Shown piece after piece: positions 14,102 to 28,896 of a stretch of DNA of 35,261 bases (position 1 is its first letter; the number at the start of each line of letters is the position of its first letter). The DNA is from Bacteroidota bacterium (lineage in GTDB: Bacteria; Bacteroidota; Ignavibacteria; UBA10030; BY39). Where the stretch lies: NCBI GenBank assembly GCA_030017895.1, contig JASEGV010000030.1, positions 1-35,261 on the forward strand. Reading direction: 5' to 3'. The notes beneath the pieces are model-generated. The model searched no databases and was not told the origin of the DNA. It worked only from the letters and a program-made list of their open reading frames with translations. Made by a program: the position numbers and the translations under genes.

Positions 14102-16195
14102 ATGAATAATTCAGAAATAAAAATCTACCGAAAAACGATTGCGAGCTATTTTGTTTTAGCAGTCATCATTCTGGTCTTCACGTCGTTAAATTTTTATTAC
14201 AACCATTCAATTTTGAAGTTCATATTTTTTGAGGCACTGTTATTGACAGGTATTGTCCTTTGGATAATAGGGAAAACTCGAAAATATTTAGTTAGCAACA
14301 TGCTTGCAATAGCAAAAACAAAAGATAGTGCCGAGGATAAATTAATCGAACAGACTATGCAGTTGCTAATTACAGCTCTTGAAGCGGCTGCGAATTCAAT
14401 TATGATAACCGATAAATCTGGAAATATTCAATGGGTGAACAACGCATTCACATTGCTAAGTGGGTATTCGAAAGAAGAGGTTATAGGAAAAAATCCTCGT
14501 TTTCTGAAGTCAAATAAACTTGATCCGAAATTTTATCAAGACCTGTGGGAAACAATTCTTGCAGGGCATATTTGGAGCGGAAGATTAGAAAATCTGCGTA
14601 AAAATGGAACCTCATATATCGATGAATCGATAATCACACCTGTAACAGATAACAACAGCGAGATCACACATTTTATTGCTATAAAGCAGGATGTAACAGA
14701 CAGAATTAAAACGGAAAATCAGCTCAAAGAATTAGAACAAAAGTACCGAAGTTTTTTTGAAGACGATGTTACGGGTGATTACATAACAACAACGGATGGT
14801 CAAATATTAATGTGCAACCCGGCATTCGCTGAAATGTTTAGATTTCCATCTGTGAGGGAGGCGCTGCATACAAACAGTGCAACTCTATACCGTGATGTTA
14901 ATCCCTTTGCAGTATTACTCTCAAAATTGGTAAAATATAAAAAGCTTAATAATTACGAAGTCGAAATGGTCAGAAAAGATGGCTCTTTGGCTTATATCAT
15001 CGCAAATTACATAGGTGTTTTCGATGAGTCGGGAATGCTTCAAGAGATTAAAGCGTATCTGATAGATGATACCCGAAGAAGAATGCTCGAAAATCAACTT
15101 ATCCAAACTCAAAAGATGGACGGAATCGGAACGTTTGCGAGCGGGATTGCCCATGATTTCAATAATATATTAGGGATAATACTCGGACATGCTTCGTTAA
15201 TAGAAGCACAAAATTATGATATAAAGGTGGAGGGAAAAAGTATTCAAGCTATTACTGAAGCCGCGTTACGGGGTGCGGAAGTCGTAAAACAATTGTTGAC
15301 TTTTACACGGAAAACTGAGATGTATCGTGAATCTGTCCAAATAAATGATGTTGTCTCTGATGTAATGAAACTTATCGGCGAAACATTCCCCAAAACTATT
15401 AATACTATATTACATCTTGAAGAAAACTTACCCCCACTTGTTGCCGATAGAACCCAACTGCATCAGGTGCTCTTTAACCTATGCGTCAATGCGCGCGACG
15501 CAATGCCGCAAGGAGGCGAACTACATATATCAACACAACTGAGAAAAAATTCCCAAGAATATATTATACTCAAAGTAAGAGATACCGGAACCGGAATGGA
15601 AGAGAAAGTAATTAACCGGATATATGAACCCTTCTTCACCACGAAAGATCTTAATAAGGGAACCGGTTTGGGACTCTCCGTCGTATTCGGAATTATTCAG
15701 AACCATAAAGGTTTTATTGAAGTAAAAAGCAAGTTAGGTGCAGGTAGCGAATTTATTATTTCCTTACCGTTAATAAACAATGAAATTATAATTAAGAATA
15801 ATGAGCTTACTGACCACACTACTCTCGTGGGAAATGAAACCATATTAGTTATTGAAGATGAACAATCATTAAGAGATTTGATGAAAGAATTTTTGATTTC
15901 AAATGGATATAAAGTTATAACTGCAACCGATGGCGAGGAGGGACTTATTGTTTATAAGCAGAATATCAGTGAAATAAAATTGGTTTTCTCAGATATTGGA
16001 TTACCGAAAATCGATGGTTTGACTTTGTTTGAAAATATGAGAGCGATACTTCCGGAAGTAAAAACAATACTTACAAGCGGTTTTTTAGCGTCTAACAAAA
16101 AGTCTGAAATCATAAATGCCGGGGTGAAAGATTTTATACAAAAACCATATCACCCGGAGGAAGTTTTAAAGAAAATCAGGAAGGTACTTGATTGA
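14102..16195 (+). CDS. Membrane PAS-PAS hybrid histidine kinase with C-terminal receiver
   Basis: A 697-residue hybrid kinase. Two membrane helices (about 14-30 and 38-57) are joined by a very short loop, so sensing is probably cytoplasmic or in the membrane. PAS domain 1 is at about 85-203 (ITDKSGNIQWVNNAF ... GYSKEEVIGKNP). PAS domain 2 is at about 213-325. The HisKA motif GIAHDFNNILGIILGHASL has phospho-acceptor His-351. HATPase_c shows the N box NLCVNARDAMPQGGEL, DTGTGM, and EPFFTTK with GTGLGLSVV. A receiver domain (about 578-697) has Glu/Asp at 585-586, phospho-acceptor Asp-631 and Lys-681. It has no output domain, so it probably passes phosphate on or tunes itself. Its 3' end overlaps coaX tail to tail by 20 bases. 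Confidence 0.9.
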   Translation: MNNSEIKIYRKTIASYFVLAVIILVFTSLNFYYNHSILKFIFFEALLLTGIVLWIIGKTRKYLVSNMLAIAKTKDSAEDKLIEQTMQLLITALEAAANSIMITDKSGNIQWVNNAFTLLSGYSKEEVIGKNPRFLKSNKLDPKFYQDLWETILAGHIWSGRLENLRKNGTSYIDESIITPVTDNNSEITHFIAIKQDVTDRIKTENQLKELEQKYRSFFEDDVTGDYITTTDGQILMCNPAFAEMFRFPSVREALHTNSATLYRDVNPFAVLLSKLVKYKKLNNYEVEMVRKDGSLAYIIANYIGVFDESGMLQEIKAYLIDDTRRRMLENQLIQTQKMDGIGTFASGIAHDFNNILGIILGHASLIEAQNYDIKVEGKSIQAITEAALRGAEVVKQLLTFTRKTEMYRESVQINDVVSDVMKLIGETFPKTINTILHLEENLPPLVADRTQLHQVLFNLCVNARDAMPQGGELHISTQLRKNSQEYIILKVRDTGTGMEEKVINRIYEPFFTTKDLNKGTGLGLSVVFGIIQNHKGFIEVKSKLGAGSEFIISLPLINNEIIIKNNELTDHTTLVGNETILVIEDEQSLRDLMKEFLISNGYKVITATDGEEGLIVYKQNISEIKLVFSDIGLPKIDGLTLFENMRAILPEVKTILTSGFLASNKKSEIINAGVKDFIQKPYHPEEVLKKIRKVLD

Positions 16196-25258: not shown

Positions 25259-25630
25259 ATGAAACATACTACAATACTTTTTGTTGATGACGACCCCGAT
25301 ATTCGCCGGGCTGTATCCGATGGTTTAACTGAAAAAGGTTACAAAGTTATTACTGCCGATGGCGGTTTAACAGCCCTGAATTTACTTGAAACAATTATAC
25401 CAAATTTAATTATCACCGATCTAAGAATGGAACCGATGAACGGTTTCGATTTTTATCAAACGGTTAAAAACAATAAGAAATTTCAAGATATTCCTTGCTT
25501 CTTCCTGACAGCGATTAGCGACCCACTCGCCGAAAAATACAGCCATGATTTAGGAGTTGACTCGTATCTAATTAAACCGATTGACCTTGATGAGTTGGAC
25601 TTAGTAATCCGTACAAAATTAAAAATTTAG
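25259..25630 (+). CDS. Single-domain response regulator (REC only)
   Basis: A 123-residue CheY-like receiver without an output domain. The active site is intact: Asp-10/11/12 in FVDDDPDIRR, phospho-acceptor Asp-54 in LIITDLRMEPMNG, Thr-84 and Lys-106 in YLIKPIDLDEL. Such proteins act by protein contact or as phosphate relays. It lies ten bases upstream of a membrane protein with a kinase-like dimerisation segment, so the two probably work together. The output is not known. Confidence 0.88.
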   Translation: MKHTTILFVDDDPDIRRAVSDGLTEKGYKVITADGGLTALNLLETIIPNLIITDLRMEPMNGFDFYQTVKNNKKFQDIPCFFLTAISDPLAEKYSHDLGVDSYLIKPIDLDELDLVIRTKLKI

Positions 25631-25640
25631 AGAGAATGAA

Positions 25641-26183
25641 ATGCAAATTTTCAAAAATAAATTGTTTGAAAAGATAAAAACTTTTGTAAATAAGTACCCG
25701 TTAATTATAGCAGCAGTCATAATTTATGCCTATTATCTGCTTACCTCTGTAAATTATTTTCAGAACCATAATACAAAAAAAGGGTTTCTTGATTATGTTT
25801 TACAGTTCGATTCATTATTTTTTATGTGGTTAGCCACAGCGGCTTATGTGCAAATTCAAAAACTACGCACAGACAAACATAGTAACACTATGCGGAACTT
25901 TCAATTGGAGAAGCAGTTGGAATTTCAACAAATCCATACAAAAGTAGTAAACGAAATTTCTGCTCTGTTGCAAGACAATGTGAATAATCCGCTTGCTGTT
26001 ATTTCGATTACTACAAAAGAAATTCGCAGGAAGTTCGAATCGGATACAGAAATAATCCGCTGGCTCGACCGAATTGATTCTTCAATGCAAAGAATTCATA
26101 ATACAATACGCGATATTCAACTCTACGAAACTCAAAAACTACTTGAAGAATCAAACACGAACTTATCAAATACGGAAAAGTAA
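25641..26183 (+). CDS. Membrane protein with kinase-type dimerisation segment lacking the His and the ATPase domain
   Basis: A 180-residue protein with two membrane helices (about 19-37 and 51-71). A cytoplasmic coiled segment follows (about 80-165). Residues 110-122, LQDNVNNPLAVIS, align well with the HisKA core HE-NNPLAVI, but the phospho-acceptor His position is Asp-112. No HATPase_c domain follows; the protein ends 60 residues later. It therefore cannot act as a normal kinase. It could be a docking or phosphatase-like partner of the adjacent receiver, or a degenerate remnant. The frame is intact with no sign of lost downstream coding. A TTG or ATG start of the patatin gene follows at once. 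Confidence 0.6.
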   Translation: MQIFKNKLFEKIKTFVNKYPLIIAAVIIYAYYLLTSVNYFQNHNTKKGFLDYVLQFDSLFFMWLATAAYVQIQKLRTDKHSNTMRNFQLEKQLEFQQIHTKVVNEISALLQDNVNNPLAVISITTKEIRRKFESDTEIIRWLDRIDSSMQRIHNTIRDIQLYETQKLLEESNTNLSNTEK

Positions 26184-26211: not shown

Positions 26212-28896
26212 ATGCTGATTTTCTTTCTTTTATGTTGCTTCTTCACTCAAACAATTTTCCCACAACAAAAACATATTTTACTTTCTGAAAATTGTAAAAC
26301 CGATCTGCAAAACAATGCTAAATTGAAAGTCGGGTTTGTATTGAGCGGTGGCGGTGCACGAAGTTTGGCACAAATCGGTGTTCTCAAAGTTTTTGAAAAG
26401 TATAATATTCCTATCAACTTGATTGTCGGCAACAGTATGGGATCGATAGTCGGCGGGTTATACTCTGCCGGCTATTCTGCTGCTGATTTGGAAAGTATCG
26501 TCATCTCTACCAATTGGTCAGAAATCCTTTCGCTTACCGACGAAACGAAAAGAACCGAACTTTTTATCGATCAAAAGCAGTCAAAAGACAGGGGCTTCTT
26601 AATTATCCGGTTCAACGGACTCGAACCTATTATTCCATCTGCGGTTTCCGGTGGGCAAAGGGTTACAAATTTTTTGAACAAACTTGCTCTCCAAGCTCTT
26701 TATCATCCGCAACCGAGTTTTGACGATTTAAAAATCCCGTTTCGAGCTGTTGCCGCCGATGTAATATCGGGCAAGCGTTTCATTTTTAAAAAAGGTTCCC
26801 TCTCTGAAGCGATGCGTGCAAGCGTGGGTGTACCGTTGATGTTTTATCCGTTGGAAAAAGATTCACTGGCGTTGATAGACGGAGGAGTTGTTACTAATAT
26901 TCCTGTTGATGTTGCAAAAGATGAGAACTGCAACGTTGTTCTCGTGGTGAACTCAACCAGCGAATTAATAAATTTAGAGAAACACGCCGCACCATGGGAG
27001 GTTGCCGATCAAATAATTACGATTATGATGCAAAACTCCAATCAGGAACAAATGGCGTTGGCTGATATAGTACTCAAACCGGAAATCGGAAATCAATTAT
27101 CATCCGATTTTAGCGACGTAAAATATCTGATAAAAGCGGGAGAGGAAATAGCTGAAAATAATATCCAATCAATTCTATCTTTAATCGACGCAAAAAATAC
27201 CACCAATAATCATGATGAAGGATTGGTATTCACTAACGTATTGTTCCATTTTGCGGGCGATTCAATACCGGAAGAAATTAAAAAAGAAATCATAGAGAGT
27301 AAAAACATCGGGAAAGTTACGCAAAAGGAATTATTGGAAGATATTAACATTATTTCTTCCTTAAAAATATTTCAAGATGTTCATGTCGATATTGTTGATG
27401 ATTCTATGTTTCATCATATTACTTACCAAACAAAATATTATCCATTTGTAAAAAAAATAATATATTCCGGTAACGTAAAATTTGAAAACACGGAAATTGA
27501 TTCCACCTTTTCCGGATTATTGGGCGAGCGTTTCAATACCGGGAAATATAATTTAGCCCGCGAACAACTTCTTCAAAAATATAGATCAAAAGGGTTAAGT
27601 CTCGCCCGAATTGATTCGATGAAATTAGACCGTGAAAATGAATTATTATCATTCATAATTAATGAAGGGGTTATTAAACAAATACAATTTATAGGTAATG
27701 ATCATACGGCAGAATATGTTTTACGAAGGGAGTTCCCTCTTAAAAAGGAAGACGCATTTCAAATAAACGCAGCGGAACGGGGAATTTCTAATTTGAGCAG
27801 TCTTGGTTTGTTCGAGTATGTTTTACTGGAAATTCAAAACGATGAAAACCGTAAACCTATCGTTGTAGTTAAAGTGAAGGAAAGATCAACCGATATCATA
27901 AAATTGGGAGTAAATGCAAACGATGAACGCGGGTTAATTTTTAATATCGATTTACGTGATGCTAACTTTCGGGGGCACGGTGAAGAACTTGGGATTAATT
28001 TTTTAGTCAGTAGCCGCATCAGAGTTGCCGAATTTGAGTATAAAATAAGGAGAATTTTCCACAGTTATTTGACTTTTAATTTTAAATTTTATCATAATTT
28101 ACAAGATATTTTTACATATCAGGACGAACTCATTCCTCCTTCAACAGATTGGAAACGTGTACAATTTGGTGAATATCGTTTTATCAAATACGGCGGTTCG
28201 CTGAGCTTCGGTACTCAACTCGAACGGCTCGGAAATATGATGTTAGAGTATAGGCGAGAGATACACGAAGTAACGGAAATCAAACGTGGGGGTGTTTATC
28301 CCGAAAAATATCCCATTTCAATATTCAAAGTTGCAACAGCCATAGATTCAAAAAATCGGATGCCATTTCCAACAGAAGGAATGTATCTTTCGATTGCTTA
28401 TGAGTCGGCAATCAAAGAATTCGGAAGTAAATTTTCGTTTACAAAGTTAACATTGACGTTTGAAAATTACTATACTCTTTTTTCGAATCATACATTTCGA
28501 CCAAAATTATTTTTTGGAGTAGCTGATGCGACTCTTCCGCTTACCGAACAGTATTCGTTGGGAGGAATGAATTCATTTTTTGGTTTGAGGGAGTACGACA
28601 GTCGCGGCAGACAAATTTTGCTTTTTAGCGGCGAGTATCGTCTCCGTTTTCCATTTAAATTTATTTACGATACATTCATTTCATTCAGGTATGATATGGG
28701 AATGATATCAAGTCTACCACAAGAAATTAAGCTTGTCAACATGCGGCACGCAACCGGTTTTCAATTAGGCTTCGATTCTCCCATCGGTCCGGTATCAGCC
28801 GCAGTAGGCAGAAGTTTTTATCTCCCTGCAAAAATAAAATCGCCGCTTTCCAAAGGTCCTTGGCTTCTCTACTTTTCAATCGGAATTGATATATGA
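26212..28896 (+). CDS. Patatin-like phospholipase with surface-antigen (BamA-like) barrel
   Basis: A protein of about 894 residues. A hydrophobic signal sequence (1-18) leads to a patatin lipase domain (about 38-350). It has oxyanion loop GGGARS at 46-51, the nucleophile elbow GNSMG with Ser-75, and the catalytic DGG with Asp-223. POTRA-like repeats follow (about 390-590), then an Omp85-type barrel (about 600-894) with the SLGGMNSFFGLREYDSRGR motif. This is the layout of PlpD-like type Vd autotransporters and outer-membrane lipases. The ATG at 26212 gives the best signal peptide. An in-frame TTG at 26185, one base after the previous stop, would add nine residues. The stop overlaps the next gene's start (ATGA). 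The released or surface-held lipase substrate is unknown. Confidence 0.88.
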   Translation: MLIFFLLCCFFTQTIFPQQKHILLSENCKTDLQNNAKLKVGFVLSGGGARSLAQIGVLKVFEKYNIPINLIVGNSMGSIVGGLYSAGYSAADLESIVISTNWSEILSLTDETKRTELFIDQKQSKDRGFLIIRFNGLEPIIPSAVSGGQRVTNFLNKLALQALYHPQPSFDDLKIPFRAVAADVISGKRFIFKKGSLSEAMRASVGVPLMFYPLEKDSLALIDGGVVTNIPVDVAKDENCNVVLVVNSTSELINLEKHAAPWEVADQIITIMMQNSNQEQMALADIVLKPEIGNQLSSDFSDVKYLIKAGEEIAENNIQSILSLIDAKNTTNNHDEGLVFTNVLFHFAGDSIPEEIKKEIIESKNIGKVTQKELLEDINIISSLKIFQDVHVDIVDDSMFHHITYQTKYYPFVKKIIYSGNVKFENTEIDSTFSGLLGERFNTGKYNLAREQLLQKYRSKGLSLARIDSMKLDRENELLSFIINEGVIKQIQFIGNDHTAEYVLRREFPLKKEDAFQINAAERGISNLSSLGLFEYVLLEIQNDENRKPIVVVKVKERSTDIIKLGVNANDERGLIFNIDLRDANFRGHGEELGINFLVSSRIRVAEFEYKIRRIFHSYLTFNFKFYHNLQDIFTYQDELIPPSTDWKRVQFGEYRFIKYGGSLSFGTQLERLGNMMLEYRREIHEVTEIKRGGVYPEKYPISIFKVATAIDSKNRMPFPTEGMYLSIAYESAIKEFGSKFSFTKLTLTFENYYTLFSNHTFRPKLFFGVADATLPLTEQYSLGGMNSFFGLREYDSRGRQILLFSGEYRLRFPFKFIYDTFISFRYDMGMISSLPQEIKLVNMRHATGFQLGFDSPIGPVSAAVGRSFYLPAKIKSPLSKGPWLLYFSIGIDI

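Follow-up and report, generated by a model that had tools for sequence, protein, structure and literature searches.

Several described systems rely on a HisKA domain that lacks part of the kinase machinery, and the roles of such pseudo-kinases in two-component signalling are largely open. A well-studied one is DivL of Caulobacter, a His-less HisKA-type protein without kinase activity that works with the receiver DivK. As described in the part of the source cited here, DivL binds DivK~P, does not need kinase activity, can dispense with its CA domain and is not a phosphatase but stabilises DivK~P (PMC4211667). The residues that matter for phosphatase activity are known from CrdS, where, in the passages cited, the acid at position +1 from the phospho-acceptor His is needed for kinase but not for phosphatase activity, the Asn at +4 is needed for phosphatase activity, and loss of the His itself weakens that activity only slightly (PMC3510030). 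The half-life of CrdA~P is 53.5 min alone and 0.7 min with wild-type CrdS; with the H371A, E372A and N375A variants it is 2.6, 0.4 and 47.6 min, respectively (PMC3510030). The His is missing in 722 of 76,471 HisKA domains, and an excerpt of PMC12632262 reports that the way in which His loss is distributed over HisKA and HisKA_3 domains does not favour phosphatase activity as a general role. Finally, archaeal 'HisKA, no HATPase' proteins have been described, for which a phosphatase role was suggested, and the same paper also mentions REC proteins that have a HisKA but lack HATPase (PMC5847659).

The locus described here lies in a stretch of 35,261 nucleotides from a Bacteroidota bacterium, referred to as the window. 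A gene for a single-domain receiver, R, is followed on the + strand, 10 nt after its stop, by the start of a gene for a small membrane protein, K (Table 1). A sequence-only reading had described a receiver with a complete active site beside a membrane protein with two membrane helices, a HisKA-like core, Asp in place of His and no catalytic domain. Both descriptions stand. R matches Pfam Response_reg (E 2.9e-21) and has an intact Asp/Asp, Asp, Thr, Lys site, with D10, D11, D54, T84 and K106 unchanged across the five R-K receivers aligned from the window's family; for K, the description agrees with hydropathy, the structural model and Pfam.

Table 1. Features of the R-K locus in the window and of two related loci discussed in the text.
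Feature	Position	Strand	Basis
R, receiver-only response regulator of 123 aa with its phospho-acceptor site intact	25259..25630	+	Response_reg E 2.9e-21
R Asp54, phospho-acceptor (with D10, D11, T84, K106)	25418..25420	+	invariant in five aligned receivers
K, 180 aa: pair of membrane helices, then coiled coil and HisKA-like hairpin; lacks His and ATPase	25641..26183	+	
K membrane helix 1, about residues 19-40	25695..25760	+	hydropathy, model helix 20-42, invariant Tyr31
K membrane helix 2, about residues 54-72	25800..25856	+	hydropathy, start of model helix 49-131, invariant Trp63
K Asp112, at the phospho-acceptor His position	25974..25976	+	82-row alignment
K Asn116 (+4), position needed for HisKA phosphatase activity in CrdS	25986..25988	+	PMC3510030 (passages cited)
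K second hairpin helix, residues 136-179	26046..26177	+	AlphaFold model
Patatin/POTRA/Omp85 gene, 28 nt after K; a neighbour, not a member of the pair	26212..28896	+	Pfam Patatin, POTRA, Omp85
His-type K and His-less neighbour, L042 and L065	L042 2851-3960, 4018-4581; L065 3004-4188, 4104-4736 (minus strand)		

From a basic N-terminus, K runs through a membrane helix, a short loop, a second membrane helix, a basic segment and a coiled coil into the HisKA-like hairpin; by hydropathy, the two membrane helices fall near residues 19-41 and 52-72. Pfam places HisKA on residues 113-162 with E 1.8e-4 and 21.9 bits, under the curated cut-off of 26.9, and gives no other match up to E 10; HATPase_c is absent. 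The homology is also carried by K's relatives, five of eight scanned passing the Pfam HisKA cut-off (L037, L066, L070, L025 and L047) and three falling under it (L051, L017 and L009). In NCBIfam, K belongs to no family, the best match having E 0.028, while the hybrid protein LvrB is weakly matched by two members of the His type (E 5.6e-7 and 8.1e-7), far under the cut-off. A search of solved structures with the K sequence returned two meaningless matches (E 0.22 and 1.2).

The box of K reads QDNVNNPLAVIS, as against the usual HExxNPL type, with Asp112 at the His position, and the frame stops 68 residues past Asp112, which leaves no room for an ATPase. Both hallmarks of a sensor histidine kinase, the HATPase_c domain and the phospho-acceptor His of the H box, are absent from K. 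The phosphorylatable His of HPt, Spo0B and ChpT proteins is likewise replaced by Asp112, and only the His paralogues discussed below have it. The residue part of a DivL-type pseudo-kinase holds in K, again at Asp112, and the Thr or Asn that HisKA-type phosphatases carry at +4 is present as Asn116.

The AlphaFold model of K, built from nine sequences, has helices at residues 2-18, 20-42, 49-131 and 136-179, with a mean pLDDT of 73.2 and a pTM of 0.34. In a Foldseek search, rows 1-9 are DHp domains in CpxA or LOV-kinase chains, all at non-significant E values (E >= 0.24), and the VIA alignment of the model with CpxA (Z 8.6) is tied with unrelated helical proteins. The similarity to HisKA thus holds by sequence (E 1.8e-4), while the fold match, with a best E of 0.24, is supportive rather than proof. 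As its HisKA core suggests, K would probably dimerise through the hairpin in the cytoplasm.

The K family is widespread in the window's order, where a profile from 33 members (E <= 1e-10) finds it in 70 of 98 genomes. In a draw from the class, 60 of 294 genomes match when at most 11 candidates per genome are scored, so that absences are soft; under the same scoring, eight full-length matches and a weak one in a 503-aa frame lie outside the order. A draw from the phylum, scored in the same way with equally soft absences, gives 16 matches in 296 genomes, comprising 14 members of the order and two genomes that do not belong to the class, in which a REC-HisKA-like protein is matched. At least 17 loci were found in a scan of named genomes, about half of them matching the HisKA part only, and a K in a 'Bacteroidota bacterium' record is 98 percent identical to that of the window.

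Sequence comparison was based on an 82-row alignment of the distinct members in fetched loci, with copies removed and unfetched matches outside the set; Pfam was run on nine of these members. Eighty of them end 53-109 residues past the site, too short for an ATPase. L031 is cut by a contig end, and L070 is the sole carrier of an ATPase (HATPase_c) among the 82. In L070 (3579-4577), the two-helix membrane module sits on a complete kinase of 333 aa. Seven columns are invariant in a 33-row alignment, two of them in the membrane helices (Y31 and W63), and the NNPL box is invariant in these rows.

The dN/dS of K between the window and its sister genome is 0.06, and seven other K pairs give 0.04, 0.05, 0.08, 0.07, 0.06, 0.13 and 0.03; eight of nine pairs were computable (0.03-0.13), several with dS above 1, and the ninth was saturated. 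For R the values are 0.02 and 0.09. K is under purifying selection and is neither a chance frame nor a decaying one. The sequence-only reading had argued against recent decay from the intact short frame and the tight spacing, and both the dN/dS values and the spread of the family through the order (70 of 98 genomes) bear that argument out. A break of a longer kinase by assembly or sequencing is rejected because the sister and three further family genomes share the same short frame. Nor does a full-length kinase occupy this place in any of the five family genomes, and among orthologues the Asp and the missing ATPase, whose conservation the same reading had proposed to check, are indeed conserved. 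As a separate observation, the K match L014 in genome G051 has one in-frame TAA near its start, which may be local decay, a late start or an assembly error.

Within its own genome K stands alone. Thirty HisKA matches were found, of which 29 have His at the site and only K has Asp, and 27 of the 29 His-bearing matches carry an acid at +1. A further HisKA domain with its His present (HDFNNIL) lies in the window itself, at 15128-15316 in a 703-aa frame. The genome also holds two short HisKA matches that lack an ATPase and keep the His: L223 (232 aa) is a receiver fused to HisKA according to Pfam, while L213 (226 aa) has a Pfam HisKA and no receiver, its first half resembling a degenerate receiver by eye. 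HisKA proteins of this kind, 223-239 aa long, lacking an ATPase and starting with a receiver or a half that resembles one, occur in the window's genome and in others (L213, L223 and L126-L133); Pfam was run on L213, L223 and L131, and the others are assigned by reading and length.

Of the 82 rows, 41 carry His at the site, 38 Asp, two Glu and one Gln. On trees built without the site columns, His versus non-His is a single change, with SH-aLRT support of 94 for 82 rows with two columns dropped, and of 96 for 76 rows with columns from the site to +4 dropped; the latter tree omits six long or broken rows, and both are quick trees. Where the f20 rows join the remaining Asp rows, the branches that meet are long, and the Asp side is therefore less securely a single group than the His side. 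The direction from His to Asp is read from the His of full kinases, as the tree is unrooted. Since both site types occur together in five genomes (G009, G012, G041, G064 and G071), the two types are paralogues.

None of the 41 non-His members has an acid at +1, as against 17 of the 41 His members. The Asn at +4 is present in 39 of the 41 non-His and 40 of the 41 His members, its loss on the non-His side being confined to two paralogues, L032 and L033. By analogy with the CrdS data, the residue set of K is that expected of a kinase-dead but phosphatase-competent DHp. By sequence K is a relative of the sensor histidine kinases that has no ATPase, and its branch also lacks the His and the +1 acid.

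The genes around K tell a more local story. R lies directly upstream of K in all five genomes of the window's family, and a patatin/Omp85 homologue follows K in all five loci. Between genera of this family, identity among the R-K receivers is no more than about 60 percent. Outside the family, the closest homologues of R share about 50 percent of its residues in f2 and some 40 percent in f5. In 19 of 20 loci chosen among the best matches in f2 and f5 (L158-L177), these homologues precede not K but the gene of an HGSNAT_cat membrane enzyme; in one of the 20, L169, the HGSNAT frame overlaps R, and its 'up' label is artificial. These loci of f2 and f5 combine a single-domain receiver, itself conserved, with a membrane protein that resembles acyltransferases (HGSNAT_cat). 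Each of the five family genomes has one HGSNAT_cat gene, on a contig other than that of R-K. R-like receivers are also present in f5 genomes where the K search found none, so R does not need K there.

A receiver or kinase gene adjoins K, on the same strand and within 400 nt, in 17 of 38 Asp members, eight of 41 His members and none of the three Glu or Gln members. Several of the loci counted have only some 1.5 kb of flanking sequence or reach the end of their contig, and L030, scored as neighbourless in a short locus, has a copy (L073) with a hybrid kinase gene 199 nt downstream, which would bring the Asp count to 18 of 38. The 17 Asp cases comprise the window's family (5/5), f20 (7/7) and five others, including L035, where the receiver gene overlaps K. 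In f20 the next gene encodes a receiver, which in the two cases scanned is fused to a sub-threshold HATPase match and shows no HisKA match. Because relatives share such neighbours by descent, the cases represent few independent events.

By the same measure, 24 of the 41 non-His members have no adjoining receiver or kinase gene, and neither does K in f2 and in most of f5. The neighbours there differ: some f2 loci carry the gene of a type II/IV secretion ATPase, and in f5 there are sigma-70 region 2 and zf-HC2 genes. In the f5 locus L193 (4860-7343), K follows zf-HC2 and sigma-70 region 2 genes on the same strand, and a second K copy, with Glu at the site and without the +4 Asn, lies about 5 kb off. 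The proposal that a receiver is the partner of K in all relatives is rejected on the neighbour surveys outside the window's family. Tight receiver pairing belongs to the window's family and not to the whole K family. K looks like a protein of receiver signalling, and support for R as its specific client is confined to the window's family. Given the 19 of 20 HGSNAT loci and the 24 of 41 neighbourless K, a dedicated R-K station is a lineage-specific hypothesis. The suggestion of the first reading that K may be a docking station or phosphatase-type partner of the receiver therefore divides: the residue pattern fits the phosphatase type, and the dedicated station narrows to one lineage.

The His-type paralogue has a neighbourhood of its own. 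Of the 41 His members, 30 have a deaminase gene within 400 nt downstream, whereas no non-His member does, which marks the His-type locus as old and stable; the one deaminase scanned matches MafB19-deam and dCMP_cyt_deam_1 in Pfam and reads as tadA. Beyond the deaminase, on the other strand, there is often a release-factor gene (L036-L069 and others; PCRF and RF-1 domains in L068). Two loci, L042 and L065, have the His-type K between two REC-kinase genes, one with a normal H box. The other has Asn at the aligned H position, no HisKA match and a full HATPase_c match of E 6e-21 and 4.8e-20, respectively. In these two loci the His is on one protein and the ATPase on the other, which would suit a possible split kinase acting in trans. 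A further variant is found at L055 (4883-5617), a 245-aa receiver protein whose second half looks DHp-like by eye, with Asp at the His position (VTDKIGNPL); Pfam finds the receiver and no HisKA.

The reading we tentatively place ahead of the others is that K is a kinase-dead, membrane-anchored, DHp-like partner of receivers, most likely a phosphatase. K would bind phosphorylated receivers on the face around Asp112-Asn116 and would most likely speed the loss of their phosphate through the retained +4 Asn, with the two-helix membrane segment controlling this activity. The conserved adjacency suggests that in the window's family the main client would be R, whose gene ends 10 nt before that of K. 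Since K cannot phosphorylate R, the phosphate would come from outside, from a full kinase elsewhere or a small phosphodonor. Against phosphatase activity stand the paralogues L032 and L033, which lack the +4 Asn, the example of DivL, which stabilises its phosphorylated receiver, and the pattern of His loss, which according to the cited part of PMC12632262 does not favour such a general function of pseudo-kinases. A DivL-like role as a reader of phosphorylation state or docking platform, in which K would hold R~P unchanged at the membrane and signal to another partner, is nearly as likely, although it too stays below an even chance. DivL itself is the precedent, as a His-less protein that binds DivK~P with kinase activity unneeded and its CA domain dispensable (PMC4211667, in the part cited). 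The invariant Y31 and W63 are what a partner-binding or sensing part would show in the membrane helices, and the lack of an output domain in R means that a partner must serve as its output. Such a role leaves less reason for an Asn that is catalytic in HisKA phosphatases to be kept in 39 of 41 non-His members, unless the box serves fold or docking only.

Both of these readings take R as the client, and the 24 neighbourless non-His members and the HGSNAT_cat linkage of R homologues count against that assumption. They would fit a K that does not act on R at all, stands beside it by accident in the window's family and instead serves other membrane or kinase proteins as a structural or hetero-dimerising subunit, as would the differing neighbours of f2 and most f5 orthologues without an adjacent receiver. 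We consider this unlikely, as the adjacency is kept in 5/5 family genomes despite receivers that have diverged to about 60 percent identity between genera, and other lineages also have a receiver or kinase gene next to K. That K is the decaying remnant of a kinase, as the loss of both His and ATPase could suggest, is highly improbable in view of the low dN/dS of all eight computable pairs, the order-wide presence and the invariant NNPL box and membrane residues in 33 rows. On the phosphatase or reader readings, one may speculate more broadly, at a level still clearly below an even chance, that an old bacterial family turned a kinase DHp into a stand-alone, membrane-controlled phosphatase or reader, with the window type, in which His and the kinase acid have been replaced and the phosphatase residue alone remains, as a dedicated off-switch built of kinase parts. 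Its His paralogue may relay phosphate or be phosphorylated by partner ATPases, a suggestion made because the neighbours in L042 and L065 are His-less but ATPase-bearing.

With its His and non-His branches, nearly all ATPase-less, the K family is a natural experiment that separates the +1 acid from the +4 Asn, and it reduces the question of phosphatase or reader to a 180-residue protein and a 123-residue receiver. The category as such is already known from archaeal, REC-HisKA and His-less precedents; a bacterial two-helix membrane family that has lost both His and ATPase, with a His sister paralogue, is undescribed in the open-access literature searched.

A comparison with these precedents shows how the same elements are combined differently. 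DivL shares with K a HisKA-type domain without the His that works with a receiver. By description, DivL has Tyr at the site, PAS domains and a CA domain, whereas K has Asp, a two-helix membrane hairpin and no CA domain. The archaeal proteins share the ATPase-less HisKA with K; in the part of the source cited, they still have the His, together with sensors of the PAS, GAF or another type, while K is bacterial and has Asp and a bare two-helix membrane part (PMC5847659). The REC-HisKA proteins without ATPase (L223, L131, L126-L130, L132 and L133) carry a receiver and an ATPase-less HisKA domain on one polypeptide, but the His is kept in all of them and no membrane helices are seen in the sequences read. 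A further comparison is with the HisKA phosphatase centre of the CrdS/EnvZ type. Although K lacks the CA domain and the His, which is helpful but not essential for phosphatase activity of the CrdS type, the +4 Asn and the NPL box of that centre are common to both (PMC3510030, passages cited).
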